This document shows, piece after piece, positions 6,328 to 30,261 of a stretch of 55,670 nucleotides of DNA. The notes below the pieces were generated by a model. The model searched no databases. It worked only from the letters and a program-made list of their open reading frames with translations, and was not told the DNA's origin. Position 1 is the first letter of the stretch. Each line of letters starts with the position of its first letter. The translations under genes were made by a program, and so were the position numbers. This stretch comes from a virus. The stretch is taken from IMG/VR virus record IMGVR_UViG_3300001782_000010, positions 1-55,670 of that record. One strand, written 5' to 3'.

Positions 6328-6375
6328 ACATACTTTTATACACCATTATATTTATTATATTCAGAGGTGTATTTA

Positions 6376-12851: not shown

Positions 12852-13617
12852 TGGATTAGATCCAATTCTGGCTAGAGACTGTAAACTTGAATTTTTAAGA
12901 AGTATAGGAGATATTCAAGAAATAATAACTGGTAAAGATACTGGTGAAACTGTCTCTTATATATTCTCTGATAATATAGTTGATATGACTGAACATAGTA
13001 ACTATAACATTAAATCACATGAATTATTATGGAATAAAATTAATTGTAAATGGGGAATAGGAAATGTACCAACTATTCCAGTATTAAAAATATTTGGATG
13101 GTCTATTGTAGGATATTTTCGTCCTGGATCTTATCTTGCATATCCTTATTATATTGAAGATTATTTACGTTCAATAAATTATGAAGTTGATATACCAGTT
13201 AAAATAGGAGAATACTTGTTTTCACATTTACATTATCCTAGAATAATTAATAAAAGAACTAAAGCATTTAATTATTTATTAAAGGAATATCCTGTTGAAA
13301 TAGCATTTTTATGGTATAGATGTTTAGATGGAATTAATCATGAATATTGTATTGGTCCAGAAAAGAACATTGAAAAAATTTTAAAATGGTATGAAAGATT
13401 AGATTATGAAATATCAAAATTAAATACAAAGTTTGAAAAAATAATAATTTTTTCTGATCATGGTGTACCATCATATGCAGGTATATTTAAAAGATTAAAA
13501 GATAAACCTCATAGAGCAAAAGGAATATTTTTAAATAATATGAAATATAAAATAAAACATATTAGAGAACTTTATTACCTTATAGAAGAATTAGCTAAAG
13601 ATATTAAAGGAATTTAA
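12823..13617 (+). CDS. Alkaline-phosphatase-fold hydrolase (phosphodiesterase/sulfatase-like)
   Basis: About 264 residues from ATG at 12823, seven bases after GGAGA and inside the end of the epimerase gene. ILCIDGLDP places the metal-binding Asp at D10, as in type I phosphodiesterase / nucleotide pyrophosphatase proteins. Later FLWYRCLDGINHEY matches the D...H pair, and IIFSDHGVPSY supplies the DH pair of the AlkP superfamily. The protein is shorter than most relatives (350-450), lacking much of the cap. It may trim a phosphate or sulfate or transfer a phospho-group in glycan building. The family is likely; the substrate is unknown. Confidence 0.6.
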   Translation: MRNIMILCIDGLDPILARDCKLEFLRSIGDIQEIITGKDTGETVSYIFSDNIVDMTEHSNYNIKSHELLWNKINCKWGIGNVPTIPVLKIFGWSIVGYFRPGSYLAYPYYIEDYLRSINYEVDIPVKIGEYLFSHLHYPRIINKRTKAFNYLLKEYPVEIAFLWYRCLDGINHEYCIGPEKNIEKILKWYERLDYEISKLNTKFEKIIIFSDHGVPSYAGIFKRLKDKPHRAKGIFLNNMKYKIKHIRELYYLIEELAKDIKGI

Positions 13618-13618
13618 A

Positions 13619-14572
13619 ATGAATATTGTATTTCTAGCTCTATATAATTCTGGAGGAATATTTGGTACTTTAACAAAGGCAATAAATAAATATACTGAAC
13701 ATCATGCAGATTTTATTTTAAAGAAAAGACATAGATATAAATTTGATTATGATATTTGTGAAACTGAAGGATACAAAAGAGAAGATGGAAACTCTTTTAA
13801 TAATGAAGATATTAAAAGAATATTGAATAATGCTGATGTAATTCATAGAAATATGTGTGCTGGTAGATTTTCTAGAATATTTGGAATAAATATAGAACCA
13901 TATTTCAATAATGTTAAAACTAGAGCCTTTCATTTTTCAGGATATGAACTTAGAAATCAGCCTGGAAGATGGGATCACTTGAAGGGAATAAAAATAGTAG
14001 ATAATTTGGATTTATTACAGTATATAAAGAATGGACACTGGCTTCCTAATCCAGTTCCTACTAATAATAAATTATATACTCCAGATCCTTTTAGATCCAT
14101 TTATACTTTAAGATTTTGTACTGATATTTCTGTACCTTCTAAATGGGGAGGACATAAAGGACTTAGCTTATATGCTGATATAATCAAAGACAAGATAAGA
14201 AAGTATAATAGTAAAGTTAGTTTAGACATTATTAATGAAGTAACTAGAAATGAATGTCTAGAAAGAAAAAGAAAATGTCATGTTTATGCAGGAGAATTAT
14301 TTTTACCTAATTATGAAAATTCAGTATTAGAATGTACTAGTCAGTCTTTAGTTATTATTAATAAACATATACTTCATCCTGAAATATATAATAATCCTCC
14401 ATTCATATTTATAGAAAAGAAAGATTTGGATAAAACAATAGAAAAGTTAATTAATACTCCAATGAAAGAAATATTTAATATAGGAAGAAAGACTAGAGAA
14501 TGGTGTGTATCATTTCATGATGATAAAATAGTAATTAAGAAATTAATATCGTTATATGAGGAATATAAATGA
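13619..14572 (+). CDS. Glycosyltransferase-like protein (GT-B type)
   Basis: 317 residues. The N-terminus MNIVFLALYNSGGIFGTLTK has the strand and Gly-rich loop of GT-B glycosyltransferases. The C-terminal part shows CHVYAGELFLPNYENSVLE followed by SQSLVIIN, resembling the donor-binding region of family 4 enzymes (a Glu in the VLE position, then small-residue turn). The ending resembles the usual terminal helix. It lies between the AlkP-fold gene and a zinc-finger gene with almost no spacing. I am fairly sure of the superfamily, not of activity. Confidence 0.5.
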   Translation: MNIVFLALYNSGGIFGTLTKAINKYTEHHADFILKKRHRYKFDYDICETEGYKREDGNSFNNEDIKRILNNADVIHRNMCAGRFSRIFGINIEPYFNNVKTRAFHFSGYELRNQPGRWDHLKGIKIVDNLDLLQYIKNGHWLPNPVPTNNKLYTPDPFRSIYTLRFCTDISVPSKWGGHKGLSLYADIIKDKIRKYNSKVSLDIINEVTRNECLERKRKCHVYAGELFLPNYENSVLECTSQSLVIINKHILHPEIYNNPPFIFIEKKDLDKTIEKLINTPMKEIFNIGRKTREWCVSFHDDKIVIKKLISLYEEYK

Positions 14573-14814
14573 AAATAAAAGTTAAAAAACATTTTAGAAA
14601 TAATACAGAAGGATATGAATATTGGGAATATGATCATTTAAATAAAAAATGTACAAAGTGTTGTTTCTGTGGACTAGATAAAGGAGATAGAAAATTATTG
14701 TTATATCATGCTTGTACAGGAGAAGAAGAACATGCTGTTCAATGTCCTGAAATGTCTACATGTTTTGGAATGTTAGTTAAGAAAAGAACAAGTGAGATAA
14801 AAAATGATAAGTAA
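14569..14814 (+). CDS. Cys-rich small protein
   Basis: 81 residues, starting in an ATGA overlap with the preceding gene. KCTKCCFCGLDKGD, YHACTG, QCPEMSTC make six or seven cysteines in about 50 residues, which suggests a zinc or iron-sulfur site. It is immediately upstream of the radical SAM gene and overlaps its start, so it could be an accessory or substrate of that enzyme; this is inference from position. Confidence 0.45.
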   Translation: MKIKVKKHFRNNTEGYEYWEYDHLNKKCTKCCFCGLDKGDRKLLLYHACTGEEEHAVQCPEMSTCFGMLVKKRTSEIKNDK

Positions 14815-15805
14815 CAAATATTCATATACCGCTGCTGGGATATTTCCTGCTAAATTATTAATACATCAAAAATTAAATGATTATACTAGAAAGTTTGGAA
14901 AAATATTTCCTATCCATATTCAATTAAATCCAACCAATAGATGTAATTTTAACTGTTTCTTCTGTTCTTGTGCAGGAAGAAAAAGAAATATAGAATTATC
15001 ATATAATGAAATTTATGATATTATGACCAAGTCAAAACAAGTTGGAGCAGAATCTGTAACTATCACAGGTGGAGGAGAACCTTTGATGCACAGAAAAATT
15101 CAAGAGATTATTCTTTCAATTGACCTTTTAGGAATTCAAATTGGTTTAGTTACAAATGGGACTTTATTAAAAAATCTTTCAACAGAAACTTTAGATAAAA
15201 TAGTCTGGTGTAGAATATCTTCTGGAGATAATGTGGAATATAGTAAATATGGAATGGGAAATGAAAAGTATAGAGATATGTTGGAAGAAATAGTTAATAG
15301 ATCTAATAAAACTGATTGGGCATTTAGTCATGTTCTATCTAGAGATCCAAATTATTATACTTTAGAACATGTTGTTAAATTTGCTAATAAACATAATTTT
15401 ACTCATGTAAGAATAGTGTCTGATCTTTTAGATCTAAAATATGTACCTAACATGAAAATTATAAAAGAACATTTAAGAAAAAGAAATATTGATGATAGTA
15501 AAGTCTTTTATCAAGGAAGAAAAGATTTTACTAGAGGAAAAAATCCTTGTTATATAAGTATTCTAAAACCAATAGTAGGAGCAGATGGTTGGATATATCC
15601 TTGTTGTGGTACACAATATGCTCTTAAAAATCCTTCAAAAGATTATGAATTTAGTATGAGGATGTGTAAAGCTACTGAAATTGATAAATTATATGAAGAA
15701 CAGAAATTTTTTGATGGTTCAGTTTGTGCAAGATGTTATTATCAGAACTATAACTGGGCTTTAGGTGTAATGTTATCTAAAATAGATCATGAGAAATTTG
15801 TATGA
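14804..15805 (+). CDS. Radical SAM enzyme with C-terminal Cys-rich (SPASM-like) extension
   Basis: 333 residues. C47-x3-C51-x2-C54 (CNFNCFFC) binds the 4Fe-4S cluster that cleaves S-adenosylmethionine, and GGGEPL (89-94) binds SAM. The C-terminal third contains CYISILKPIVGADGWIYPCC, a Cys in MRMCKA, and CARCYYQN, a pattern like SPASM domains that hold auxiliary clusters. Such enzymes modify peptides or sugars (dehydrogenation, epimerisation). Inside a glycan operon a sugar or a small peptide could be the target. Its start overlaps the Cys-rich gene and its stop overlaps the next start. Confidence 0.82.
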   Translation: MISNKYSYTAAGIFPAKLLIHQKLNDYTRKFGKIFPIHIQLNPTNRCNFNCFFCSCAGRKRNIELSYNEIYDIMTKSKQVGAESVTITGGGEPLMHRKIQEIILSIDLLGIQIGLVTNGTLLKNLSTETLDKIVWCRISSGDNVEYSKYGMGNEKYRDMLEEIVNRSNKTDWAFSHVLSRDPNYYTLEHVVKFANKHNFTHVRIVSDLLDLKYVPNMKIIKEHLRKRNIDDSKVFYQGRKDFTRGKNPCYISILKPIVGADGWIYPCCGTQYALKNPSKDYEFSMRMCKATEIDKLYEEQKFFDGSVCARCYYQNYNWALGVMLSKIDHEKFV

Positions 15806-16668
15806 AAGTAAATGTTGTAACTGTTAGTTCTGGATGGATCTTAGAAAAAATAGCTGATAGATTAATAGAGAACAATAATAAATTAAACACAAAAATGGAA
15901 ATGAGAAAATGTTATCAGCCAAATAATAAAGCAGATATTAATTATTATATTGATATTTACAACTGTTTCTGGAATAAATCTAAAATTAAAGATGTAGGAT
16001 ATTTTACTCATTTAGACAAAGATTCTGACAAAAGTTTTGAAGATCATTGGAAGTTATTAGATTATATAGTTCATAAAAATAGTTATTATTTAGATAGAAC
16101 AGCTAAATGGGGATATCCTAGAGAAAAGATGAAAGTAATAGTACCTCCAATAGATACTGAACAGTTTCATTTAAAGAAAATAACACTTGGGATAATTCAA
16201 AGAGGATATTATATTGGAAAAGGTCATCAGTTCATGCTTGATCTTCCTAAATATATTAATCTTAAAAACTTTAGATTTTTATTTATTGGACAAGGTTGGG
16301 ATCAAGTCTGTTCAGAATATAATAAAAGAAAAATTGCTTTTATGTATACTAGAAACGAGGATTATAATTTGTACAGGAAATATTATGAAATTATAGATTA
16401 TTTATTAGTTCCTTCTTTATGGGAAGGTGGACCAATGTGTATTCTAGAAGCTTTATCATGTGGTATTCCAATAATATCTAGTAAAGTAGGATTTGTACAT
16501 GATTTTAAGATTGATCATGTATTTGAACCAAACAATTATAAACAATTGATTAAGATTTTAAAAAATATAGAAAAAGAGAAACTGGAAAGAAGAGAACAAC
16601 TTAAAAATATCAATTGGAACAATTATATATTGGAACTATATAATATATTTAAAGAGGTTTTAAATTGA
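15802..16668 (+). CDS. Glycosyltransferase family 4-like
   Basis: 288 residues. RGYYIGKGHQFMLDLPKY and LFIGQGWDQV give the donor-side Rossmann strands. VPSLWEGGPMCILEALSCG contains the E-x7-E signature of GT4 enzymes, followed by GIPIISSKVGFVHDF. The N-terminal acceptor domain is short and diverged. It retains the key donor residues, so it is likely active as a transferase of nucleotide-activated sugar. Both ends overlap the neighbours by four bases. Confidence 0.72.
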   Translation: MKVNVVTVSSGWILEKIADRLIENNNKLNTKMEMRKCYQPNNKADINYYIDIYNCFWNKSKIKDVGYFTHLDKDSDKSFEDHWKLLDYIVHKNSYYLDRTAKWGYPREKMKVIVPPIDTEQFHLKKITLGIIQRGYYIGKGHQFMLDLPKYINLKNFRFLFIGQGWDQVCSEYNKRKIAFMYTRNEDYNLYRKYYEIIDYLLVPSLWEGGPMCILEALSCGIPIISSKVGFVHDFKIDHVFEPNNYKQLIKILKNIEKEKLERREQLKNINWNNYILELYNIFKEVLN

Positions 16669-17099
16669 AAATAAATCTCGGATCAGGAAAAGATTATAGA
16701 AATGGGTTTGTTAATATAGAGAAAAATACTTTACTTAAAGCAGATATTCATTTAGATCTAGAAAAAGATAGATTACCTTTTAAAGATAGTTCGGTTGATT
16801 TTATTTTAATTAAACATACTCTGGAACATATTACTAATATTGTACATTTATTGAATGAATGTCATAGAATATTAAAGAAAGATGGAAATATACATATTGA
16901 AGTACCAAATGTAGCACACCCACAAGGAATTATAAGTGCATTTGGAGATATTTTTCATGTAAGATGTTTTAGTCCTTTTACTTTTACTATGCTTGGAGGA
17001 AGTTCAGACGATTACAGATTTAACAATCTTAAACCTTGGAATTTAATCAAATTAAGTTCTAATAGAGATATTATAGCTATTTTATCTCCTAGGAAATGA
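16665..17099 (+). CDS. SAM-dependent methyltransferase, first of a tandem pair
   Basis: 144 residues starting with TTG inside the previous stop (TTGA). INLGSGKDYRNGFVNIE is motif I; LPFKDSSVDFILIKHTLEH the middle motifs; ECHRILKKDGNIHIEVPN the C-terminal strand. It is closely similar in order and wording to the following gene (LNLGCGARYLQGFINID; HTLEHINN; ECHRVLKPN), so the two arose by tandem duplication. They are typical of the short methyltransferases found in glycan clusters. Confidence 0.7.
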   Translation: MKINLGSGKDYRNGFVNIEKNTLLKADIHLDLEKDRLPFKDSSVDFILIKHTLEHITNIVHLLNECHRILKKDGNIHIEVPNVAHPQGIISAFGDIFHVRCFSPFTFTMLGGSSDDYRFNNLKPWNLIKLSSNRDIIAILSPRK

Positions 17100-17103
17100 T
17101 GAT

Positions 17104-17550
17104 ATGATTAAATTAAATTTAGGATGTGGAGCTAGATATCTTCAAGGATTTATAAATATTGATATTGACAGATCTTACAAAGCAGATCTATATCTTGATT
17201 TTGAGAGAGATGTTTTACCATATCAAGATAATTCTATAGATTATATTATAGCTATTCATACTTTAGAACATATTAATAATATATGGGATCTTTTAAATGA
17301 ATGTCATAGAGTTCTTAAACCAAACTGTATATTAGAAGTTGAAGTACCAAATATAGCTAATATTCCACAAGGATTATTAGATTCTGTAGAAAGTATGTCA
17401 CATATAAGATTTTTTGTACCTTCATCTTTTAAAACTATGACTACTGCAGGAACAAAAGCAGGAATAAAATATAATAAATTAAAAAGATGGAAGATAATAG
17501 AAATAAAACATAATAGAGCTATACATGTTAGGATGGTGCCTATAAAATGA
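17104..17550 (+). CDS. SAM-dependent methyltransferase, second of a tandem pair
   Basis: 148 residues. Motif I is LNLGCGARYLQGF, followed by NSIDYIIAIHTLEH and ECHRVLKPNCILEVEVPN. The sequence parallels the gene just upstream along its whole length, including the VPN...PQG segment. The duplicates may differ in acceptor position. The end overlaps the next ATG. Confidence 0.7.
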   Translation: MIKLNLGCGARYLQGFINIDIDRSYKADLYLDFERDVLPYQDNSIDYIIAIHTLEHINNIWDLLNECHRVLKPNCILEVEVPNIANIPQGLLDSVESMSHIRFFVPSSFKTMTTAGTKAGIKYNKLKRWKIIEIKHNRAIHVRMVPIK

Positions 17551-18185
17551 GGATATTAATAGTTACTCCAGCTAGAAGCTTTCAAGATGTTCATATTAAA
17601 GTTATGGAAGGAATAAGATCTTTAAATCTAGGAGAACATATAGTAGATTGGATATTACTTACTGAACAAAAATATAAAGGAACTGATCAAGGAAGTAGAG
17701 AAGGAAACTTAAGGTTAAAATTAGAATATGGCAGAAAAATATTTCTAGAAAATAACTATGACAAAATGATGATAGTAGAAAGTGATAATGTAATTCCAAG
17801 TCACACTTTACTGGATTTAATTAAAACTCCAGGAGATATTTCAGCTACTTTAATAATGGATAGACCAAGTATGGTACATGGACAGTATGAATGGAATTTA
17901 GTAAGGCAGACTGGTTCAGCATTCAATAAAAATGCTTTAGAATTAATTAGAAAGAAAGAACCATTTATAATAACTGGTGCAACAGGTTATCATTGTATAA
18001 TGATAGATAGAAAAGTTCTAGAAAAAACAGAATTTAAAGCTACTGATATTCATTCTTATATTAACTGGAGAGGATTAGGATTTCAGATATATTGTAATCC
18101 TCTTATTAATGTTGGACATCTAGATCATAAAAAGATCTATAAGAAAGAAATAGATGGAGAAAAAGTGATAATATTTGAAGCCTAG
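17547..18185 (+). CDS. GT-A type glycosyltransferase-like protein
   Basis: 212 residues. MRILIVTPARSFQDVH opens the nucleotide-binding fold; KMMIVESDNVIPSHTLLDLI has the acidic D-x-D-like turn position (ESDN), with the following helix. TGATGYHCIMIDRKVLEK and an ending with NVGHLDHKK resemble the acceptor side seen in the two tandem transferases at 20652 and 21508 (GTGFCLIRDRVLKK; YDHLHYD). It is therefore a more distant relative of that pair. No exact donor can be named. Confidence 0.5.
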   Translation: MRILIVTPARSFQDVHIKVMEGIRSLNLGEHIVDWILLTEQKYKGTDQGSREGNLRLKLEYGRKIFLENNYDKMMIVESDNVIPSHTLLDLIKTPGDISATLIMDRPSMVHGQYEWNLVRQTGSAFNKNALELIRKKEPFIITGATGYHCIMIDRKVLEKTEFKATDIHSYINWRGLGFQIYCNPLINVGHLDHKKIYKKEIDGEKVIIFEA

Positions 18186-18579
18186 AAAAGTATTCATGTT
18201 TGATATAGGAGACTGCTTAGATATTGGAGGAGAAAGAAAAGGAGACAAAGGATTTCTTATTCCAACTAGAGAAGTATTTACTAGTCTGAGAGATAAAGGA
18301 TACTGGTGTGGTTTTGCTTCTGGAGTATATTTCTGGGTTGGACATCAGATTGCCAATAGAAATAGATTAACAATAGATTTTGCTTTCAAGAAAGAAGATA
18401 TAATATATTTTGTAGGAAGTGTAGAAATAATGTATGGACCAGGAACAATTTTTTATATGATAGGAGAAGATGAATCTGATAAAATGTTTGCTGATATAGC
18501 CAATCAAGCATGTCCTAGTAAAGTTATATATTATTCTCCTAGAGAATTTTATAAAAGATTTAAACAAGGAGAATTTTAA
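18175..18579 (+). CDS. Hypothetical protein, possibly a degenerate HAD-like fold
   Basis: 134 residues from TTG at 18175 overlapping the previous gene; ATG at 18196 is an alternative. KVFMFDIGDCLDIGG looks like the first strand and Asp motif of HAD phosphatases (hhhhDxD), but the second Asp is displaced; FASGVYFWVGHQIANRN could be the second motif. The final basic residues of the fold are not obvious. Within a sugar operon a HAD phosphatase would make sense. I hold the call loosely. Confidence 0.35.
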   Translation: MKPRKVFMFDIGDCLDIGGERKGDKGFLIPTREVFTSLRDKGYWCGFASGVYFWVGHQIANRNRLTIDFAFKKEDIIYFVGSVEIMYGPGTIFYMIGEDESDKMFADIANQACPSKVIYYSPREFYKRFKQGEF

Positions 18580-18580
18580 A

Positions 18581-19159
18581 TTGGATTTTAAAAAATTATG
18601 GGACCAAAGAAAGATTGGTACATATCAAGATATTGAACTTCCAGATGGAACTGTTTTGGAAGGATGGAGACATTCAGAAAAAACATGGGACCAAATTAAA
18701 TGGATCCCTTTTAAAAACAAAATAATTCTAGATATTGGTCCTTTTCATGCATATTTTTTAATAAAGGCTGTTCAAGCTGGTGCTAAAGAATGTTATGGAA
18801 TAGATTTAAATGTTGGTGCGTTAGGGGAAGGAGAAATAAAAACATTATATGTAGCAAAAGAAATTGTTAAAAAGTGGAAATTTAATAATATATATTTAAT
18901 AATAGCAGACTGGATGTTTTCTCCTATTAAAAATAAAGTAGATATTATTTTATGTTTTAATACAGCACATTATTTTCATAATATTAATAAAGGAATAGAA
19001 GACATGTTTAAAATAAGTAAAGAATGGATAATATTTCAAGTGATGCATCATATTGTACCTATTATATATAGATATTGTAATAAATATAATTTTAAGGTAG
19101 AAAAAGAAATAATTGGTACATGGAATCAGAGACCAATATTATTTTGTAGAAAGGTATGA
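18581..19159 (+). CDS. SAM-dependent methyltransferase (CmoB/DUF1698-like)
   Basis: 192 residues starting with TTG, with AAGGAG about ten bases upstream. TWDQIKWIPFKNKIILDIGP leads into the SAM loop; AGAKECYGIDLN supplies the acidic strand end; the later strands VDIILCFNTAHYF match. The N-terminal segment before the fold resembles CmoB-like enzymes that modify tRNA wobble uridine, but similar proteins occur in glycan clusters. I favour a glycan role because of context. Confidence 0.65.
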   Translation: MDFKKLWDQRKIGTYQDIELPDGTVLEGWRHSEKTWDQIKWIPFKNKIILDIGPFHAYFLIKAVQAGAKECYGIDLNVGALGEGEIKTLYVAKEIVKKWKFNNIYLIIADWMFSPIKNKVDIILCFNTAHYFHNINKGIEDMFKISKEWIIFQVMHHIVPIIYRYCNKYNFKVEKEIIGTWNQRPILFCRKV

Positions 19160-19162
19160 AAT

Positions 19163-19912
19163 ATGATAATTACTGGAATTGTTAAATTTTATAATGAAAG
19201 TAATAATGGTAATTTAGAAAGATGTCTTAAACAGATGTCAATATATTGTAATCATATTATATGTTGTAATGATTCAAGTACTGATAATAGTCTAGAAATA
19301 GCATATAAATATACTAATGATATTATTAATCGTCCTAATGATTTTAAATCTGAACTTCAGCACAAACAAGATTTGTTAGATTATTTGTATAAATTTTATC
19401 CTAAAACTGATATTATTATACATTTAGACCCTGATGAATGTTTAGATAATATTTCTAATATAGGAGCTTTGTGTGATGAAGTTCTAATAAAAAATTATGG
19501 AGGAATAAGAGCACACCTTCTCAATTTATGGTTATCTGAAGATTATTATAGAGTAGATAACGCATTCAATTATTTATGGAAAACATTTCTATGGAGAAAT
19601 ACTGGAGAATTAAGGTATCCTTCTGAAAAGAAATTACATCAACCTATGCACCCTCCAAATATTAAAAATATAGCTACTGTTAATCCAAGAAGTTTACAGA
19701 TAATTCATTATGGATTTTCTACTCCTGAATTAATAGCTAGAAAATATAAAACATACAAATCATTAGGACAGACTGGATGGGAATTAAGTAGATTAATACC
19801 TACTCATAAAACAGAACTATTTCCTTTATATCCTGGTTCAGGAGGAAGACCTATAAATAGAATAAATAAGAAAGAATGGAAGGAAGTATTAAAAAAATGT
19901 CAATTACAATAG
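19163..19912 (+). CDS. Glycosyltransferase family 2-like
   Basis: 249 residues. MIITGIVKFYNESNNGNLER and HIICCNDSSTDNSLEIA form the GT2 nucleotide-binding half with the DSSTDN loop. IIHLDPDECLD is the D-x-D metal-binding motif. A helix-rich C-terminus with HPPNIKN and IIHYGFSTPELI follows. It is similar to the SunS / glycosyl transferase group that adds sugars to proteins or lipids. It starts three bases after the previous gene. Confidence 0.7.
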   Translation: MIITGIVKFYNESNNGNLERCLKQMSIYCNHIICCNDSSTDNSLEIAYKYTNDIINRPNDFKSELQHKQDLLDYLYKFYPKTDIIIHLDPDECLDNISNIGALCDEVLIKNYGGIRAHLLNLWLSEDYYRVDNAFNYLWKTFLWRNTGELRYPSEKKLHQPMHPPNIKNIATVNPRSLQIIHYGFSTPELIARKYKTYKSLGQTGWELSRLIPTHKTELFPLYPGSGGRPINRINKKEWKEVLKKCQLQ

Positions 19913-20655
19913 TTATACCAACATATAATTCAGTAGATTATTTAAAAACATGTTTAAAGTCTATTTTCAAACAAACTCTTAAACCAGATGAAATTTTAAT
20001 AATAGATGATTGTTCTACAGATAATACTTGGGAATATCTGGAAGACTTAGCTAAAAATCATTCAGAAATAAAAATACATACTAATAAAGAAAATATGGGA
20101 ATAGGGTACACTAGAGGAAAAGGAATTGATCTAGCAAGATCAGAATATATTGGATTTATATCTGCTGATGATGGTTTAGAAAGAAAATTCTGTGAAGTAA
20201 TGTTAAAATATAATATTAAATATTCTGATTCATTATTGTATTCAGATTATTTTAGATGTAACGAAGAATTAATACCTACTGGAATATATAGAGCACCATC
20301 TTTTAGAGATCAGGAAGAATTGGAGAAATATTGTATTGTTGAAGCTAGAAAACATAACATGTTTATTTGTTATAATTTATTTGGACCTTCTAAAATATGG
20401 AAGAAATGTAATTTTAATCCTAATAAAAGAATGGTAGAAGATTTAGAACATTTACTTAGAGCATTAGTTGTACATCATATTAAATTTACTCATGTACCAT
20501 TTCCTTTATTTAAATATAGAATACATAAAAAATCAACTACATCTCAGAAATATTGGGATTGTATAAAAGAAAATAGAAAGACCTTTAAAGAAATAAATAC
20601 TCTAGTAAACAAAAGAATACTATGGGATCAAATCTTTAAAGGTAAAAAATTATGA
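19897..20655 (+). CDS. Glycosyltransferase family 2
   Basis: About 252 residues from ATG at 19897, which follows GGAAGGAAG inside the end of the preceding gene. MSITIVIPTYNSVDYLKTCL is the standard GT2 opening, followed by LIIDDCSTDNTW, NKENMGIGYTRGKGI and ISADDG, the D-x-D-like metal site. Then a C-terminal region with MVEDLEHLLR supplies the catalytic acidic (ED) motif. All key features of an active inverting transferase are visible. Confidence 0.8.
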   Translation: MSITIVIPTYNSVDYLKTCLKSIFKQTLKPDEILIIDDCSTDNTWEYLEDLAKNHSEIKIHTNKENMGIGYTRGKGIDLARSEYIGFISADDGLERKFCEVMLKYNIKYSDSLLYSDYFRCNEELIPTGIYRAPSFRDQEELEKYCIVEARKHNMFICYNLFGPSKIWKKCNFNPNKRMVEDLEHLLRALVVHHIKFTHVPFPLFKYRIHKKSTTSQKYWDCIKENRKTFKEINTLVNKRILWDQIFKGKKL

Positions 20656-21515
20656 AGTCTAGATTAGAATATTTAAAATATAAAGATAAAATAACAATTG
20701 GTGCTCCATTTTATAATTCTGTATGGTGCTGGAAAATATTTAGTAAAAGTATTTTAGATCAAGACTACAATAAAAAATATATTAATATTGTATGGGTTGA
20801 CAATGGATCAACAGATAATACTAAAGATTTATTATTAAAATTTAAAAAGAAATATGAGAAAGATTACAATTCTATTAAAGTCTTAGATTGTCCAAGAGTT
20901 AAAGAGAAATCTAGAGGAATGAGAAAATATATTCGAAATATAGTCAATGGTACAAATATGATAGCTGATAATAGAGAGAAAGATAGTGATCTTATATTAA
21001 TGGGAAGTGACTGTATTCCTCCTCAAAATGGTCTTAAAAAACTTCTAGATATGAAATATCTTGGAGCTGATATTGCAGGAGGAATAACTGTAATATTTGC
21101 AGGTGGTAGATTAGATAAATATGGTAGAAAAACTGTTATACCAGTCTTTTCTATATTTAACGCTTTAAGTCCATCATCTGCTTTTAAAGGAGTATTATTC
21201 CATAAAACTGAAAAGGATCTTCTTACTTTACCAGTATGGTTAAAAGATAAAGTAATTAGAGTAATGGCTTTAGGAACAGGTTTCTGTTTAATAAGAGATA
21301 GAGTATTAAAGAAACAAAGATGGAAAGTAAATTATAGATTTGGAGAGGATTTATATTTCTGCTGGACAGCACACCTTAATGGTTTCAAAATATATGCTGA
21401 TACTTCTTTATGGTATGATCATTTACATTATGATTATCAAGTAAAAAAGAAGAAACTAGGATATCAAATAATATATAAAGGAGAAACTGATAAGAGGGAA
21501 CGTTGGATTGTATAA
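20652..21515 (+). CDS. Glycosyltransferase family 2, first of a tandem pair
   Basis: 287 residues. TIGAPFYNSVWCWKIF, VWVDNGSTDNTKDLL and LILMGSDCIPPQNGL follow the GT2 order, with GSDC as the metal-binding acidic turn. GTGFCLIRDRVLKK and YRFGEDLYFCWTAHLNG carry the ED catalytic motif, and WYDHLHYDY a conserved His end. Its closest relative is the next gene, showing tandem duplication. The ATG overlaps the previous stop. Confidence 0.75.
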   Translation: MKSRLEYLKYKDKITIGAPFYNSVWCWKIFSKSILDQDYNKKYINIVWVDNGSTDNTKDLLLKFKKKYEKDYNSIKVLDCPRVKEKSRGMRKYIRNIVNGTNMIADNREKDSDLILMGSDCIPPQNGLKKLLDMKYLGADIAGGITVIFAGGRLDKYGRKTVIPVFSIFNALSPSSAFKGVLFHKTEKDLLTLPVWLKDKVIRVMALGTGFCLIRDRVLKKQRWKVNYRFGEDLYFCWTAHLNGFKIYADTSLWYDHLHYDYQVKKKKLGYQIIYKGETDKRERWIV

Positions 21516-22392
21516 TTCAGATTATCAAATAACTATTGGAACACCTTTCTATAATTCTTCATATTATGTAAATATGTATTTAAAACATGTTTATGATTTA
21601 GATTATCCTAAGAAATTAATAAATTTAATATTTGTTAATAATGAAAGTACAGATGACACAGAAGATAAACTAGTTAATTTTTGTAAAAAATATAAAAACA
21701 AATATAGATCTGCTAAAGTACTTTTTACTAAACATATCGAAGAAAGAGGAAAATTTAAAGGGCATTCAAATATTGTAGAATCTGTTAAAGCTTTCATAAA
21801 AGAAAATAAAACTGACTTATTATTTATAGGGTCCGATTGTTTTCCTACTAAAGATTCTATTAATAAACTTATTGAATTATTTAGAAAAGGTGCTGATATA
21901 GCTGCAGGAATTACTTTAGTTGGAGGAGCACAGACTCAAATTAAAGGTAGATTAATAAAAGGAATACCTGTTTTAAGTGCTTATTCTTTTGATAAGATTA
22001 CTGGAAAATTTCATTCTCTATCTAGAATTAAAAAAGATAAACCATATGTTTCTATGTTAGGAGTTGGATATTTAAATAAAATAGTAGAAGTAGATGGTAT
22101 AGGAACAGGTCTGTCTTTAATTAAAAAAGAAGTTCTAGATAATGTGTCTTTTGGAATAAGTAAGAGATATGGTGAAGACCTATATTTCTGTATGAAAGCT
22201 AGAATGTTAGGATATAAGATAATGATAGATACAAGTTTATTGTATAACCACTGGCATTATAGTTATTCAACTAATACTAACCAAGATGGAATGTATTTCA
22301 TAGTTAAGGGAATTAGAAATAAAGAAACAGGTGAAATAAATCCTATAATAGATAAGAATGCTTATAAATCAAAAAGGACATCAATTTATTAG
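21508..22392 (+). CDS. Glycosyltransferase family 2, second of a tandem pair
   Basis: 294 residues from TTG at 21508, nine bases after AGAGGGA. TIGTPFYNSSYYVNMYLKHV, FVNNESTDDTEDKL, LLFIGSDCFPTKDSINKL, GIGTGLSLIKKEVLDN and KRYGEDLYFCMKARMLGYKI align motif by motif with the upstream gene. It is the last gene of the glycan operon. The motifs are complete, so both copies are probably active on different acceptors. Confidence 0.75.
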   Translation: MYNSDYQITIGTPFYNSSYYVNMYLKHVYDLDYPKKLINLIFVNNESTDDTEDKLVNFCKKYKNKYRSAKVLFTKHIEERGKFKGHSNIVESVKAFIKENKTDLLFIGSDCFPTKDSINKLIELFRKGADIAAGITLVGGAQTQIKGRLIKGIPVLSAYSFDKITGKFHSLSRIKKDKPYVSMLGVGYLNKIVEVDGIGTGLSLIKKEVLDNVSFGISKRYGEDLYFCMKARMLGYKIMIDTSLLYNHWHYSYSTNTNQDGMYFIVKGIRNKETGEINPIIDKNAYKSKRTSIY

Positions 22393-22404
22393 GAGGTTAT
22401 GATA

Positions 22405-23085
22405 TTGGTAGTCTTAGTTGATCTACAGGTAAATACTGGAACTAATGCTTCACCTTCATGGTCTACTATTACAGCTAGTGAAAAATTAGTTTTTACAACA
22501 AGTGATATGACTGATTCTACTACAGATGCTAATATTCCATTTATTACTAAACCTGCTTCTGGAACAACTACAGCTGAACGATTATATTGGGGTACTTCAG
22601 GAGAATATACATGTATAATAACATATCATGGACATGGTACTGGAATGGACAGACCTAATGATAATGAAAATGTTATTAGATGGTCATGGGATGCTGCAAT
22701 GAATAGTGCTCCAGAATTTACTGCATGTTTAGATACTGTGACACATTCAGCTGCAACAGCTGGTAATGAAACTCTTCTAGGAGGAACAACTAATGAGACA
22801 GTTGATAAATCACATCTTAAAGCAGTAATATGTGATGGAAGCTTATCAGCTTCATGGTGTACTGCTGGAACAGGATCTATAGGAGAAGTAACAACTACAA
22901 ATACTGGGCAGTCATTAAATGGTTTCTATTCTGAAGATAATTCTAATGGACAAACATTGAAGAAAGATGGTATTCCTTCAGGAGCAGATAATGAACCACT
23001 AGCTCTATGTATGTTTGTATCCGCTTCATTGACAGAAACTGGTACTGTAGATTTCTATCTATCCTGTAAATTTACATATACATAA
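22405..23085 (+). CDS. Thr/Ser-rich structural protein (probable virion surface protein)
   Basis: About 226 residues from TTG at 22405, seven bases after a perfect AGGAGGT; the ATG at 22399 is only one base from that site and so less likely. The sequence is rich in Thr, Ser, Gly and Asn, with short beta strands and few Lys, unlike the Lys-rich enzymes upstream. SGEYTCIITYHGHG, TGTVDFYLSCKFTYT and GTGSIGEVTTTNTG suggest a beta-sandwich virion protein. The strong ribosome site and a hairpin right after the stop suggest high expression. Being next to the glycan operon and so Thr/Ser-rich, it could itself be a glycosylation target. Confidence 0.5.
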   Translation: MVVLVDLQVNTGTNASPSWSTITASEKLVFTTSDMTDSTTDANIPFITKPASGTTTAERLYWGTSGEYTCIITYHGHGTGMDRPNDNENVIRWSWDAAMNSAPEFTACLDTVTHSAATAGNETLLGGTTNETVDKSHLKAVICDGSLSASWCTAGTGSIGEVTTTNTGQSLNGFYSEDNSNGQTLKKDGIPSGADNEPLALCMFVSASLTETGTVDFYLSCKFTYT

Positions 23086-23175: not shown

Positions 23176-23622
23176 TTGATTAAAATATCTTATTTTATAG
23201 CCCATCTAGACAATGGAAAAAGTATTTCAGAACAAAAGATGTTAAATATTATTGATCCTAAATATAGGAGATCAGTATGGGATTTTATGAGAGATAATGG
23301 ATATTTAGAAAAAATATCTTCTCTAGAACTTAAACTTCCATATGGAGACTTGGTAAATATTCCTAGGAAAGAACCACACTGGAAATTCTTCCAGTTTAAA
23401 TATGCTCAGTCTGCTCCACAGAAAGGATATAGTCACAAAAGACTTGCTCAGATAATTGGTGCAGTTTATAATAATAAAGGAGATTGTATTATAGTATGTT
23501 ATTTATCTGATAGTCCAGATGTTATAGTAACAATAGATAATATTATAAATTTAAGATTGTTTAGAATAGGAGCTATTAATTTAAAGTTACATAATATAGA
23601 ATTGAAGGAGATACCTATATGA
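23176..23622 (+). CDS. Hypothetical protein, 148 residues
   Basis: The likely start is TTG at 23176, though TAGGAG abuts it directly, leaving unusually short spacing. The protein is alpha/beta, with GYSHKRLAQIIGAVYNN and CYLSDSPDVIVTIDN as the best-defined segments. I recognise no family. Its stop overlaps the start of the YkgJ-like gene, so the two are probably co-translated. It belongs to the group between the glycan operon and the long fibre. Confidence 0.45.
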   Translation: MIKISYFIAHLDNGKSISEQKMLNIIDPKYRRSVWDFMRDNGYLEKISSLELKLPYGDLVNIPRKEPHWKFFQFKYAQSAPQKGYSHKRLAQIIGAVYNNKGDCIIVCYLSDSPDVIVTIDNIINLRLFRIGAINLKLHNIELKEIPI

Positions 23623-23987
23623 TCTCTTTCAAATGTCAAAGATGTGGATGGTGCTGTAAAAATAAAGCTATAAATATTTTATATTCTGATATTAAACGAT
23701 GGGAAAAAGAAGATAGAAAAGATATTTTAAAAGAAGTAAGTTTTGTAGAAGTAAAGAATCCTAAAATATCAGGATTTTATTTTGTTAAAACAAGTATTCC
23801 AAATCATGATAAATGTCCTTTTTTAACTTTTAAAAATGATTTAGCTATATGTTCTATATATGAAACTAGACCTAAAAGTTGTAGGAATAATCCAGAAATT
23901 ATTCCTAAGGAATTATATAAGAAATGGTTAGGATGCCCTGCATTCAGGGAGGTGTACAGGGATTGGATAAAAGAACAATTGAATTAA
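23619..23987 (+). CDS. YkgJ-family CxxCxxCC metal-binding protein
   Basis: 122 residues. The N-terminus has C6-x2-C9-x2-C12-C13 (CQRCGWCC), then KCPFL, AICSIYETRPKSCR and LGCPAF, which is the full cysteine layout of the YkgJ/Fli-B group (putative zinc- or iron-chelating domain). The length matches the family. These proteins occur next to modification enzymes in bacteria and archaea and in some phages; their reaction is not established. The last 25 bases overlap the start of the long fibre gene. Confidence 0.75.
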   Translation: MISFKCQRCGWCCKNKAINILYSDIKRWEKEDRKDILKEVSFVEVKNPKISGFYFVKTSIPNHDKCPFLTFKNDLAICSIYETRPKSCRNNPEIIPKELYKKWLGCPAFREVYRDWIKEQLN

Positions 23988-26797
23988 GGAAAGATGAACA
24001 AGAAGATACTCTCCTAGCTATTTTACATAAAGACGAACTTTTACAGATTATTACTAATGCTAGAAAAAATATAAGTCTAAATTTAGATCCTGAAACAACT
24101 CTAGAAAGTGATAGTGAAGACATTGGTAATTGGACAGGTTCTGGTGATTCTCCTTATCTGCAATACGATGATAATAATTATATTTATTCTGATGCTAAGA
24201 AAGATACTACAAATAATGTTACATTTGAAAATCTTCCAGGAAATGCAGAATCTATTAATACAGTAGTTCTAAAAATAGAAACATATCTTGTTGGTAACGC
24301 TAAAAGTGGTCTAGTATATTACTGGGATAATGATGGAAGTACTGAAAGAAGTGCTGACTTAAACTTTCCTCGAGATACATGGGGAGAACAATCAATTGAT
24401 ATTACTTTAGATATAGGTACTGTTTCTGATGTTAATGCTTTATATGTGAGATTAGAATCACCTAATTTAACGAATGAATCTAGAATAGATTATGTCAAAG
24501 TACTTGTAAATTATAATGAAACTGCAGCAGTTACTACATCTTTTGAAGATATTCCTGCAACTATTAAAATTGAAATATTAGATTATAAAAACATCTTATC
24601 AAGAATCAGAACAGAAACAAAAGATTATAAAAATATAATTTCTAGATTAAGAGTTCAATTAAAAGAATTTAAAAATATTCTGTTTTCAATTAATGTTCAA
24701 ACTGAAGAGTTTAAAAATTACTTATTAAAACTTAGAGTTCATACTTTAGAATATAAAAATATTCTAACAAGTATTAAAATATATACAATTCAATACAAAG
24801 ATATTTTTTCTAGAATAAGACTGATTTCAATCAAATATAAGAGTATACAAGTTAGACTTAGAATAGGTTTTACAACTTATAAAAATATACCGATAATAAT
24901 TAAATTAGAAACTTCAAATTATAAAAATATAACAATAAGGATTAAAACTAGAGTTGAACAATTTAAAGATCTCATAATTAGAATTAGAACTTGTGTTAAA
25001 CTATATAAGAATCTTTTATTAAGAATACGAATACAGAATTTAATTTATAAAGATATAATTTTTCAAATTAAAATACAATATAAAATCTATAAAGATATTC
25101 TTGGAACTTTAAAACTTGAAGATTTACTTTATAAAGATATTTTAACAAGATTAAGAATTGTAACCACTTCTTATATATATATTTTAAATAGAATTAAAAT
25201 CCAGACTTTGGAATATTCTAATATATTAATTCAAATTAGAACACAGTATGAAAATTACAAAAATATTCTATCTAGAATTAGAACTATAACTTTAGAATAT
25301 TCAGATTATATAATACGAATTGAAATTCATTATTTAATATTTAAAGACATTACTTCAAAAATAAAATTAGCTGGAACAGGGTTCAAAGATATTGTACTAA
25401 GAATTAAATTTGTGGAAGAATATTTTAGAGATTTACCTTCTCTAATAAGAATAAAAATAATAGAATATAAAAATATCATATTTAAAATATATATACATTT
25501 AACTTTATATAAAGATATTTTAAATCAGATAAAACTAGAGACTTTAGTATATTTAAATAAAATAGTAAGAATAAGAACTCATATTGAAACATACAAAGAT
25601 ATTTTAATCATAATAGAAACTGCTTATAAAAATTATTCTGATATTATCTCTAGAGTAAGATTTGCACAGACAGAATTTAAAGATATTAATATTATGATTA
25701 AATTCTTTTCAGGAAATTACAAGGACGTTCTTGTAAAGATTAGAACTAAGATAATAGTTTATAAAAACTATATATTTAGAATTAAAATTCATAACTTAAA
25801 ATATTCTGACTATTTAATGAGAATTAGAAGTCAATATAAATTTTATGCTGATAAACTTATAAAAATAAAGAACCAATCTCAAGGAATTAAAGATATTCCA
25901 ATTAGAGTTCGTACAATGGTTTCAGGATATTATAAATACTATCATATTATAGTTAAATTCTTACAGAATTATTATAGAGATAGACATTCAATAATTAAAC
26001 TTGCCTATATTTCTTATAAAAACATTCTTTCAAAAATAAAAGTTTCTGTTAAGACAACTTCAGATTATTTGATTAGAATTCGTTCAATTAGTCTATTTGA
26101 TATTTTGGATCAACACTGGGACAGTCTTACAGACTGGATTAAAAGTGGAGATGGAACATCTGAGATATACCCTCCTTCACAATTACATCAGAAACCAGAA
26201 TCATACTCATATGTTAAAAGATCTTATGATATTTCAGAAGGATTTACAACTAAAATTTACACAGTATATTTCTCAGTAAAAGCAGAATCATGGGGTGATT
26301 ATATATCTCATGATTTCTTTGATGGTATTCATTGGATCAGTTTTAGAATAAAATCTGATAGAATAGAATTAAGAAATGAATTTGGAACATATTCTTATTA
26401 TACTTTAAGTACTGATACTAACTTTCATACTTGGGAATTACAAGTTAACAGTTTAGAACCTTTTGTTAAAGTCTATAGAGATAATATATTCATTACTAAA
26501 TTTACTTCATTATATGATTATACACAACTTGAAGGAAGAGTAGAAGTTTACTTATATAGATTTACTGATGGAGAAATGTACGAGGATTATCTGAGAATAA
26601 AATCTGGGATAATTCAGTTCTTTAAAGATGTACAAGTAAGAACTGGTTTTAGAGATTACTGGTTGTATTCTTATGCAACTGTTAGAATTAGAACTACAGA
26701 TTTTAGAAGACCAGTTGTAATATCTAAACTAGAACTCTTAAGAAGATATATTAAATTAATACCTATGAAGAAAAATATATCTATTGAAATGTATTGA
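23963..26797 (+). CDS. Long tail fibre with 37 tandem 14-residue repeats
   Basis: About 944 residues from TTG at 23963, eight bases after GGGAGGTG; earlier in-frame codons at 23924 and 23954 lack such a site. Residues 1-190 include a jelly-roll-like domain (VVLKIETYLVG, GLVYYWDND, DVNALYVRLESPN). Residues 194-712 are 37 consecutive units of the type YKNILSRIRTETKD with exactly one inserted residue. Then comes a sandwich domain (about 713-885) paralogous to that at 6376-6900, and a basic tail with two weaker units. Aromatic residue at position 1, Lys/Asp or Asn at 2-3 and alternating hydrophobics at 4, 8, 10 suggest a repetitive beta structure. Its place in the late region and the shared domains point to a fibre or adhesin. 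Confidence 0.7.
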   Translation: MDKRTIELRKDEQEDTLLAILHKDELLQIITNARKNISLNLDPETTLESDSEDIGNWTGSGDSPYLQYDDNNYIYSDAKKDTTNNVTFENLPGNAESINTVVLKIETYLVGNAKSGLVYYWDNDGSTERSADLNFPRDTWGEQSIDITLDIGTVSDVNALYVRLESPNLTNESRIDYVKVLVNYNETAAVTTSFEDIPATIKIEILDYKNILSRIRTETKDYKNIISRLRVQLKEFKNILFSINVQTEEFKNYLLKLRVHTLEYKNILTSIKIYTIQYKDIFSRIRLISIKYKSIQVRLRIGFTTYKNIPIIIKLETSNYKNITIRIKTRVEQFKDLIIRIRTCVKLYKNLLLRIRIQNLIYKDIIFQIKIQYKIYKDILGTLKLEDLLYKDILTRLRIVTTSYIYILNRIKIQTLEYSNILIQIRTQYENYKNILSRIRTITLEYSDYIIRIEIHYLIFKDITSKIKLAGTGFKDIVLRIKFVEEYFRDLPSLIRIKIIEYKNIIFKIYIHLTLYKDILNQIKLETLVYLNKIVRIRTHIETYKDILIIIETAYKNYSDIISRVRFAQTEFKDINIMIKFFSGNYKDVLVKIRTKIIVYKNYIFRIKIHNLKYSDYLMRIRSQYKFYADKLIKIKNQSQGIKDIPIRVRTMVSGYYKYYHIIVKFLQNYYRDRHSIIKLAYISYKNILSKIKVSVKTTSDYLIRIRSISLFDILDQHWDSLTDWIKSGDGTSEIYPPSQLHQKPESYSYVKRSYDISEGFTTKIYTVYFSVKAESWGDYISHDFFDGIHWISFRIKSDRIELRNEFGTYSYYTLSTDTNFHTWELQVNSLEPFVKVYRDNIFITKFTSLYDYTQLEGRVEVYLYRFTDGEMYEDYLRIKSGIIQFFKDVQVRTGFRDYWLYSYATVRIRTTDFRRPVVISKLELLRRYIKLIPMKKNISIEMY
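24542..26098 (+). repeat. 37-unit array of 42-base coding repeats (14 residues each)
   Basis: The 1557-base segment encodes 519 residues, that is 37 units of 14 plus a single extra residue near the end (between the unit IKDIPIRVRTMVSG and the next). The units keep an aromatic first residue, [KS][ND] at 2-3, a branched hydrophobic at 4, and [KR][IL][KR] around positions 7-9. DNA copies are strongly diverged, so selection acts on the protein pattern, not on recent DNA duplication. Confidence 0.9.
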
Positions 26798-26865: not shown

Positions 26866-27162
26866 ATGGGACTGGCTGTTTTTGAACTAGGTTCTGAAGT
26901 AAGATTTAGAGCTACAATTACCGATTATGATGCTAAAACATTATTTAATCCAGATGATCAAACAGTTAAATTAATATCAGGTTCTTCTACAGTAACATAC
27001 GGAAGTCCTGTCTCAGAAAGTACTGGTATATTTTATTTTTCTTATCAGACTTCTATAAATGATCCTGAAGGTTATTGGTATATTGAATGGAGTATTACTA
27101 AAGATTATATCACTACTGTATCTAGAAAGAAATTTCTTGTACAAAATAGTGGTGGAGATTAA
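26866..27162 (+). CDS. Small Ig-like beta-sandwich protein
   Basis: 98 residues after a GAGGAGG site. Strands can be followed: FELGSEVRFRATITD, QTVKLISGSSTVTYG, GIFYFSYQTS, GYWYIEWSITK, ISRKKFLVQ-like end. The plan resembles the BppU-like protein at 7124 and small Ig-like decoration proteins. It follows the long fibre and immediately precedes the intein gene. It may be a tail accessory or capsid decoration. Confidence 0.5.
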   Translation: MGLAVFELGSEVRFRATITDYDAKTLFNPDDQTVKLISGSSTVTYGSPVSESTGIFYFSYQTSINDPEGYWYIEWSITKDYITTVSRKKFLVQNSGGD

Positions 27163-30100
27163 ATGAAAATATATCTTTATATGATAAATACTTCACTACT
27201 TTCTAAAAGATATCAAGCTGAATTAGACTGGTTCTCTGCATATCCTTCAAAAGAATGTTCTAGAAAATTTGTATTACAAAAACATAAAATAGGAAAAAGT
27301 ATTTCAGATGAAGATCCGATAATTATTAAAAGAAATAATAAAATAGAAGTAATACCCATTAGACAATTATTGCCTTACAAGTTAAGAACAAGATCTGATA
27401 TTTACGAATATAAAATAGAAGGAATAAAGACTTGGACTAGAGGTGGATGGAAAGATATTAAATGGTTAATGAGACATAAACATAATGGTTTATTTAGAGT
27501 ACAATGCCCTTCTGGTTTAATTAATATTACAGAAGATCATTGTTTATTTAATGATACCAAACCAATTAAAATATCTGAATTTAAAGAAAATCAAAATATA
27601 GAACTTTGTAATTTACCAGTTATAAATGGTAATATTCATGTAGATCAGGAAATTGCATGGTTATTTGGATATTATTTAGCTGAAGGATCTAAACATGGAA
27701 AATATGCTGTAATATCACAAAATAATAAAAATGTTCTAGAAAAGATTGGAAAGATAATTTCTAAATATGGAGGAAAATATTTTATTTCAGGAAATAATGT
27801 GGAATTTTCTGGATTTAATATATGGAATGAATTTTATATTCCTAGCCCTCATAAACGAAGACAATCTAATGATAAAATAGTACCTTCATTTGTATTTCAA
27901 TGGGATAACAATTCAAAACAAGAATTCTTAAGAGGTTATCTAGAAGGAGATGGAGATGGTAATCTGAATTTTTCTACTTCTTCATTAGCTTTAGCTCAAG
28001 GTATAATTTTATTAATTTATTCTTTATATCCAAATAAAGATTTTACAATTATATGGGATAATTTAATTAGAATTAAAACAATAGATCCAATACATAACAG
28101 AACAGAATATCCTAGAGGAAGAATAAAAAATATTAAGAGAAGTTTAGCTTCAGATGCTGATGGTAAGAAAAATCCTAATTATAAATATGGAAAATATAGA
28201 TTCAAGAAATATAAAGAGAATAAATATATTTATTCTAACAAAAGATGGGTATATGATATAGAAACGGAAGATCATTCGTTTATGGCTGGAGTAGGAAGAA
28301 TATTAGCTCATAATTCACAACATGGAGATCTTAGACTTGAAAAATGTGATTTCCTAGAGGGATCATCTATAGTTGGATTTTCTGAAGATAAACAATTTAA
28401 TGCTGACACTCTTCTTAGCAATAGAGGAAGAGGATTTAGAGCTGAAACAAAATGTATTCAAGAATATTGTAATGAATGGAAATATAATATTGAAGAAAGA
28501 AATGGAGAATTTTATGCTGTTCCAATAAATATTGAAGAATTAAATTTTAAAGATATAGAGGAATTAGCAAGGCAGCCAAAGATATGGTTAAAAGTAAAAG
28601 GAGAAATAAAACCAGGAGAAGTAGGAGGAGGAGTAGAAGCACCAGGATACATGGAAATAATAGATTCTGGAACATATTGGGAAGGAGCAATTAAACCTTG
28701 GTTTAAAGAATTCTTTCTTAATGGGAAGACTTTGAAGAATTATGTTAGAATTATTATTAGAGCTATTAAAGTAAGAAAGATAGATCCTAAAACTAAGAAA
28801 CCAACTGGTAGATATGAAAGAATGTGGAGAATAATGGCACCAATAGATCAGACTCCATACGCTATTAAAAGAGGTAGAAAGAAAGGATGGGTCCCTCCAA
28901 AAGGAACTATTCCAATACCTCCTAATTGGAGGAAAGAAAATAAAGATAAATATGAAGAATGGTTACAATGGATTAAAGAGAAATGGTCAGAAAGACAGTC
29001 TTTATCTAAAGATGTACCTTTTACTTTAGCTTTACATAGATATAGAGGTCCAATTCATGTAAGAGGAAATTGGATAATAGATTTTTATTTATTATTTGAT
29101 GATAAAAGAACTGGATCTGTTAAAACATTTAAAATAGAAGGAGATCCAACTAGGAACAAATCTATATTGGCTTGGAAATGGAAAAAGACTTCTAGAAAAT
29201 TTCTAGATTATGAAGGAGAAACAAGACCAGGAAGTACTTTTAATCCTACAAAAGAAGTTAAAGGGGAATACATTATTATAGATAAAGGAAAAGTAAATAT
29301 TGAATTAAAGAAAGAAGAAACTGGAAATATCATTGATCTACAATTTAAAGGTAAGGAATTAAAAGGTAAATGGAAATTAAGTCAAGAAGAACCTGGATCA
29401 GAATCTTATGCTTTTGAAAAATTACATGTTGAAAAGTTAGTTCCATACAAATTTGTTTTACATAAACATGTTTTAGATTCTAAAGTACATTTCGATCTAA
29501 GATGGAAAACATCTGAAATTACAAAAGAAGAATTAAATTTATATTATAATCCTTTAGAAACAAAAGATAAAATTAAAGCATTTTATAAAAGTATAAAAGA
29601 ATCTAAAGATAAAGTTGATTACTGGATGATTGATAAAGGTACTAATATTAAAAGAAAGGTAGGTAATAAAGAAACTACAATTGACGTACTTGATTCAGGT
29701 ACATTAGAAGTTATAGAACATAATCCACAATTTTTATCTTTTAATATACTTGGAAAGAAATTGAAAGATCTTTGGGTAGCTAAGAAAAGTAACGGATTGT
29801 GGTACTTCTGGAAAACAAGTAAACCTAAAGAACCAAGAGAATTAGCTGGTGCAGGAGATCCTAAAACAGGAGATTATTATAAACCTTTTATTATAGAAGA
29901 AAAGAAAGGATGGGATCATTTTAATATAAAAATATATGATATAAGAGATTTTACTAGATGTGAAGGAGAAGAAAAAGTTAAACTTTATTTTAAAGATATT
30001 AATATTCCAAGTGGAGTAAATATTGGTGTTTGTTTATATCCTGTAATTGGAAAAGTACATCATGTAAGAGTAGCATTTGTTCAATTTAATAATAAAACAT

Positions 30101-30261
30101 GGAATTATGAAAAAGCTAAAAGTTGGATTAAAAGTAAAAAATTACATTTATTTGAAAGAGAACAGATTAGAAAAAGAATTGAAGAAGATATAGAAGAAGA
30201 GAAATATATATTAAGTAATAAATCTAGAACTAAAGAAGAGGGAGAATGTTGTCAGGAATAG
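27163..30261 (+). CDS. Intein-containing protein with three LigD-type 3'-phosphoesterase-like domains
   Basis: A 1032-residue precursor; removal of residues 46-384 (intein) leaves 693. Domain 1 reads FVLQKHKIGK + SQHGDLRLEK across the splice junction, matching the phosphoesterase motif QKHxxxxxHYDLRLE of LigD (His41, then H387, D389, R391). Domain 2 (about 620-755) keeps the later part (FLDYEGETRPG, FKGKELKGKWKLSQEE) but its His/Asp/Arg core is degraded (HVRGNWIIDFYLLF). Domain 3 has FVLHKHVLDSKVHFDLRW (H769, H776, D778, R780). The His-to-His spacing of +7 is the same in the spliced domain 1 and in domain 3, one more than usual in LigD, which supports the splice boundaries. The C-terminus (GKVHHVRVAFVQFNNKTW) vaguely recalls XkdF-like phage proteins. 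It lies just upstream of the head protease, a strange place for a DNA repair enzyme. Confidence 0.72.
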   Translation: MKIYLYMINTSLLSKRYQAELDWFSAYPSKECSRKFVLQKHKIGKSISDEDPIIIKRNNKIEVIPIRQLLPYKLRTRSDIYEYKIEGIKTWTRGGWKDIKWLMRHKHNGLFRVQCPSGLINITEDHCLFNDTKPIKISEFKENQNIELCNLPVINGNIHVDQEIAWLFGYYLAEGSKHGKYAVISQNNKNVLEKIGKIISKYGGKYFISGNNVEFSGFNIWNEFYIPSPHKRRQSNDKIVPSFVFQWDNNSKQEFLRGYLEGDGDGNLNFSTSSLALAQGIILLIYSLYPNKDFTIIWDNLIRIKTIDPIHNRTEYPRGRIKNIKRSLASDADGKKNPNYKYGKYRFKKYKENKYIYSNKRWVYDIETEDHSFMAGVGRILAHNSQHGDLRLEKCDFLEGSSIVGFSEDKQFNADTLLSNRGRGFRAETKCIQEYCNEWKYNIEERNGEFYAVPINIEELNFKDIEELARQPKIWLKVKGEIKPGEVGGGVEAPGYMEIIDSGTYWEGAIKPWFKEFFLNGKTLKNYVRIIIRAIKVRKIDPKTKKPTGRYERMWRIMAPIDQTPYAIKRGRKKGWVPPKGTIPIPPNWRKENKDKYEEWLQWIKEKWSERQSLSKDVPFTLALHRYRGPIHVRGNWIIDFYLLFDDKRTGSVKTFKIEGDPTRNKSILAWKWKKTSRKFLDYEGETRPGSTFNPTKEVKGEYIIIDKGKVNIELKKEETGNIIDLQFKGKELKGKWKLSQEEPGSESYAFEKLHVEKLVPYKFVLHKHVLDSKVHFDLRWKTSEITKEELNLYYNPLETKDKIKAFYKSIKESKDKVDYWMIDKGTNIKRKVGNKETTIDVLDSGTLEVIEHNPQFLSFNILGKKLKDLWVAKKSNGLWYFWKTSKPKEPRELAGAGDPKTGDYYKPFIIEEKKGWDHFNIKIYDIRDFTRCEGEEKVKLYFKDINIPSGVNIGVCLYPVIGKVHHVRVAFVQFNNKTWNYEKAKSWIKSKKLHLFEREQIRKRIEEDIEEEKYILSNKSRTKEEGECCQE
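27298..28314 (+). mobile_element. Intein with LAGLIDADG homing endonuclease (339 residues)
   Basis: The intein runs from Ser46 (SISDEDPIIIKRNNKIEVIP, block A) to Asn384; ITEDHCLF is block B with its His, and YDIETEDHSFMAGVGRILAHN followed by Ser is blocks F/G. The inserted endonuclease has both LAGLIDADG helices, LFGYYLAEG (167-175) and LRGYLEGDG (256-264), each keeping an acidic residue, so it looks active. The first extein residue after it is Ser385, as required for splicing. It interrupts the phosphoesterase motif between its two catalytic histidines. Confidence 0.85.

Follow-up and report, generated by a model that had tools for sequence, protein, structure and literature searches.

The stretch of DNA analysed here (55,670 nucleotides, hereafter the window) is a 55.7-kb viral record with an HK97-type major capsid protein, a tape-measure protein and a terminase. 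Its plus strand carries a module of three genes, which we call A, B and C. Genes A (22399–23085, 228 residues) and B (23176–23622, 148 residues) encode proteins of no known function, and gene C (23963–26797) encodes the repeat fibre protein. The mechanically assigned reading frame of gene C runs from an ATG at 23924 to 26797 (957 residues); the likely start is a TTG at 23963, preceded 8 nt upstream by a GGAGGTG motif, which gives a product of 944 residues, 13 fewer, with the repeat array at residues 194–712 (207–725 in the longer frame). The protein consists of an N-terminal globular domain of sandwich-like appearance (24071–24523), an array with 37 copies of a 14-residue unit, consensus YK[DN]ILSRI[RK]xxTxx (24542–26098), and a C-terminal domain (26096–26797, residues 725–957 in the 957-residue numbering), all on the plus strand. 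The C-terminal domain has a paralogue lacking the repeats, encoded on the same strand at 6367–7113 (32% identity, E 4e-23). A small gene follows each of the two paralogous domains (7124–7480 and 26866–27162); their products look β-rich and show no clear relationship to one another (E 0.2). Directly 5′ of the module lies an island (11862–22392) of genes for an epimerase, a radical SAM protein, methyltransferases and at least four glycosyltransferases, which may serve the glycosylation of virion proteins.

The 37 in-register units at 24542–26098 reported in the preliminary description were reproduced in both coordinates and count. In frame, the array comprises 519 residues, or 37 × 14 + 1, with the single extra residue before residue 698 and with degenerate ends (first unit FEDIPATIKIEILD, last unit TSDYLIRIRSISLF). 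Self-identity of the array was 0.312 at lag 14, 0.288 at lag 28, 0.267 at lag 42 and 0.297 at lag 56, whereas 1000 shuffles gave at lag 14 a mean of 0.094 (sd 0.012) and a maximum of 0.137. Mean identity between units was 29% at the protein level and 50% at the DNA level. At conserved positions, pairs of units shared a synonymous codon about as often as the codon usage of the genome predicts (e.g. 0.46 vs 0.47 for I8, 0.78 vs 0.78 for R7). Synonymous codons are thus randomised at the conserved positions, indicating that the units are old and that the protein pattern has been kept by selection, as had been claimed together with the strictness of the register. The same description had let the array end where a sandwich domain begins; the boundary stands, as a C-terminal domain with a paralogue starts there, while the sandwich fold is a reading of the sequence only.

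The repeat had no match in Pfam, NCBIfam or PHROG that reached a curated cut-off or was clearly significant, and a profile search of the PDB gave nothing significant, the matches at E 0.07–1 being unrelated proteins. Weak PHROG matches to families of unknown function (phrog_31757, phrog_6167, phrog_27016 and phrog_38841; best 2e-4) were obtained with other members of the repeat family only, none with the window protein. Literature searches on 14-residue repeats in phage fibres and on the string TRFKL found nothing relevant. The repeat therefore remains unnamed in all profile libraries searched, in line with the original assertion. A coiled coil and collagen were ruled out by the absence of a heptad and of GXY, respectively.

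Protein and gene scans of IMG/VR with the whole fibre, the C-terminal domain pair and the major capsid protein detected no relatives, and an alignment of the window units alone was dropped as a scan query for being too variable. Because the protein-level scans gave no relatives, we used degenerate DNA patterns spanning two consecutive units. Among the genomes of 84,980 bacterial and archaeal species, such a pattern scan identified a contig of a Dehalococcoidales metagenome-assembled genome (MAG) (L005) with ten units, e.g. YKDISTRFKLVVQN. Its motif, Y.D..TRF.L, then retrieved from IMG/VR five contigs (L006–L010) with up to 33 units; L007 and L008 are one virus (100% identity over 10.4 kb) and were counted once. 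With a further contig described below (L035), the repeat is present in at least seven independent records, namely the window and six other viral or prophage-like ones including the MAG. The other records preserve it better than the window, as [YF]KDxxTRFKLxVQx. A profile built without the window matched the window array at E 1.7e-21 (best reversed or shuffled control, 0.018), and a profile from the window only matched L026 at E 2.5e-37 (best control, a reversed sequence, 2.5e-4). The window shares with the family the tandem 14-residue register, [YF] at position 1, [DN] at position 3, R7 and hydrophobic residues at positions 8 and 10. On one point these findings correct the preliminary interpretation: the repeat is not confined to the window protein. 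The window array, diverged and AT-rich, belongs to a repeat family common to other tailed viruses. Within the class and the phylum of the Dehalococcoidales MAG (294 and 400 genomes, respectively), a profile search found the repeat only in that MAG. Three further matches were set aside as due to chance: L003, from a stricter AT-rich DNA pattern, L004, from the genome scan, and one to repetitive DNA on a Staphylococcus chromogenes plasmid, at a site where a 6-kb ORF runs along the opposite strand beside LPXTG/SecY2 genes.

Gene B is likewise conserved near the arrays, and homologues of gene A were found in four repeat-bearing contigs (22–28% identity). A scan of IMG/VR with gene A alone returned five contigs, 5/5 with an array; four were already known, and the fifth, L035 (67% GC), was new and also has gene B. 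Linkage of A and B to the array holds for the window and five other records, a count that leaves aside the 4-kb fragment L009, with 22–30% identity between the window and the other A and B proteins. The repeat, its neighbours and the prediction of a new member thus provide three agreeing lines of support. The diagnostic motif and the linked gene pair now allow further members of the family to be found. The domains that accompany the array vary: the window protein has its C-terminal domain, L006, L007 and L010 have other N-terminal domains, and the 910-residue protein of L035 (5010–7742 of that contig) has a non-repeat domain of ~370 residues, propeller-like in appearance, inside the array. L035 also has a LAGLIDADG endonuclease-like ORF between A and B (891–1925). 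Structural genes lie near the module in other records as well (terminase, portal and tape measure in G004, portal in G005), and where the module sits with respect to the head and tail genes varies between viruses.

The window contains the repeat at a second place. Four diverged units (48780–48962, plus strand; spacings of 15, 16 and 16) lie at the N-terminus of ORF 48723–50582, which was detected at E 1.1e-7 with the family model A4 and at 4e-8 with the window-only profile. Judged by its sequence, the remainder of this ORF is a probable tail hub protein; searches of PHROG, the PDB and phage sequences (tblastn) gave no match to it. Conserved neighbours, structural genes close by and repeat units on the probable hub agree with the earlier proposal of a fibre and give it a virion context.

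In the window units, mean hydropathy was +2.4 at positions 4, 6, 8, 10 and 12 and −1.5 at positions 3, 5, 7, 9, 11 and 13 (column permutation, p = 0.013), and the same alternation of hydrophobic and polar positions was seen in other family members. Assigned with equal penalties for 12, 13, 15 and 16 residues, 153 of the 178 spacings between units were 14, 11 were 16, nine were 12, three were 15 and none was 13; the remaining two, of 29 and 27 residues, each span a weak unit. The predominance of two-residue changes fits a need to keep the alternation of a β-strand. AlphaFold2, given 15 aligned eight-unit segments, placed a strand at residues 3–13 of the unit and a turn at 14-1-2 in models of both the window and L009, mainly one strand per unit and in the same phase, although in L009 one unit pair was merged into a single strand. 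Confidence was low (pLDDT 62 for the window and 53 for L009; pTM 0.48 and 0.37), so that the models lend weak support to the β-strand per unit that had been suggested. Foldseek searches of these two low-confidence models against the PDB and viral models returned no match at E ≤ 0.001; one viral match was the entomopoxvirus protein W6JJ26 (TM 0.55, E 0.047).

Several known fibrous systems resemble the array in part. In the triple β-spiral, a Pro/Gly turn links the two antiparallel strands of each repeat (PMC7565637). Like the triple β-spiral shafts of adenovirus and reovirus, the window protein has many short repeats, predicted to be β, with hydrophobic alternation and a globular head after them, but it has one predicted strand per unit and no conserved Pro/Gly position, with only 11 Gly and Pro in about 519 residues. 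In the δ β-bracelet of the pentameric Orsay virus head fibre, strands of 5 residues alternate with loops of 3, giving an 8-residue period (PMC7565637). This fold would share with the window repeat a short strand and a short loop per chain repeat, an acidic or Asn loop residue and a hydrophobic interior, whereas the window period is 14 and its strands are predicted to span about 10–11 residues. The functional amyloids CsgA (curli) and FapC are also long β arrays with a strand per repeat; however, they gave no significant structural match and are not virion proteins. Finally, a tail protein of Aeromonas phage 13AC503A (OQ622094.1, L011) has a C-terminal run of about 14-residue units (APYGLTAGYLPDLV), but the consensus of these is PYGL/AGY, and with a single tblastn match at 22% identity kinship with the window repeat is not established. 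We class the repeat as a new family within a familiar category, the shafts of virus fibres; its fold may be new as well.

We consider it probable, at about 0.6, that the array provides the shaft for a modular, virion-attached adhesion fibre, in which amphipathic strand units form a meander sheet, several chains associate and the end domains bind. This role is favoured because the arrays, which range from a few units to 37, carry varied globular domains, lie in a late-gene setting and share their units with the probable hub. The low AlphaFold2 confidence and the varying place of the module count against it. Each unit would be an amphipathic β-strand (about residues 3–13) followed by a tight turn (14-1-2), with positions 4, 6, 8, 10 and 12 buried and D3, R7 and K/R9 directed toward solvent or adjacent strands. 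Successive strands would pair, presumably antiparallel, into one long sheet; with a three-residue turn, paired positions would sum to 16 and residue 8 would face residue 8, keeping the faces consistent. Several chains, three by analogy, may pack their hydrophobic faces together into a stiff rod, the length of which would be determined by the number of units, and globular domains at the ends of the array or inserted in it would bind the host surface or glycans. Genes A and B probably encode partner or assembly proteins. We infer the place of the gene C product in the virion from the location of the module among capsid, portal and tail genes and from the hub-borne units. Gene C would then mark a likely host-recognition protein of viruses known from metagenomes alone. 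A bolder proposal, which we hold only tentatively, is that the units adopt a previously unseen fibrous β fold that serves as an interchangeable shaft in uncultivated tailed viruses, with fibre and hub units docking by the same strand pairing. If new, the shaft fold would extend the short list of fibrous β folds known from virus fibres and provide a simple unit for building rods of set length.

A different architecture, a monomeric parallel β-solenoid of the curli or antifreeze type, would make each unit a coil with ladders of Tyr1, Asp3, Arg7 and Ile8 and would need no partner chains. The recurrence of the same positions in every unit suits such ladders, and the top Foldseek matches, none of them significant, were mostly parallel β-solenoids and amyloids (FapC, CsgA, ice-binding proteins and bactofilin), but the best-ranked had a TM of about 0.1–0.2 and E of at least 0.05. 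Moreover, a predicted strand of 10–11 residues leaves ~3 residues for the return to the next coil, an unpaired Arg7 ladder is unfavourable, and free loops would tolerate odd insertions and deletions, which are nearly absent from the spacings. The even-numbered changes thus favour tight hairpins, and a solenoid seems unlikely to us.

The place of the shaft on the particle, and its presence there at all, may also be read differently. The module precedes the major capsid region in the window and in G004, where it comes just after the portal, and in L035 the short ORFs after it resemble head-tail joining genes, as would suit a head or neck appendage (a head fibre or whisker) or a structural spacer in place of a tail receptor-binding fibre. 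However, in G005 the module comes last among the structural genes, and the window repeat also occurs on the probable tail-hub protein; we regard this assignment as rather improbable. A protein outside the virion, secreted by the infected cell or displayed on its surface, or a spacer lacking any defined fold, would accord with a family known from uncultivated records, with no isolate, and with the low AlphaFold2 confidence. Yet register and amphipathy are retained in genomes of 28% to 67% GC with synonymous sites saturated, which indicates that the fold matters, and gene C stays together with A and B among late genes, making this explanation very unlikely. The adhesion fibre remains our preferred reading.

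Other features of the window were recorded alongside. The capsid-region protein encoded at 27163–30261 has a LigD 3′-phosphoesterase-like domain, unusual company for head genes, and an apparent LAGLIDADG intein inserted near residues 40–390, at a second such site. The terminase large subunit (51504–52805) is on the minus strand, and nearly all other genes of the window are on the plus strand. A class II (B12-dependent) ribonucleotide reductase is encoded at 4280–6022, its nearest match among phage records being that of Moorella phage MTATph1 (46%).
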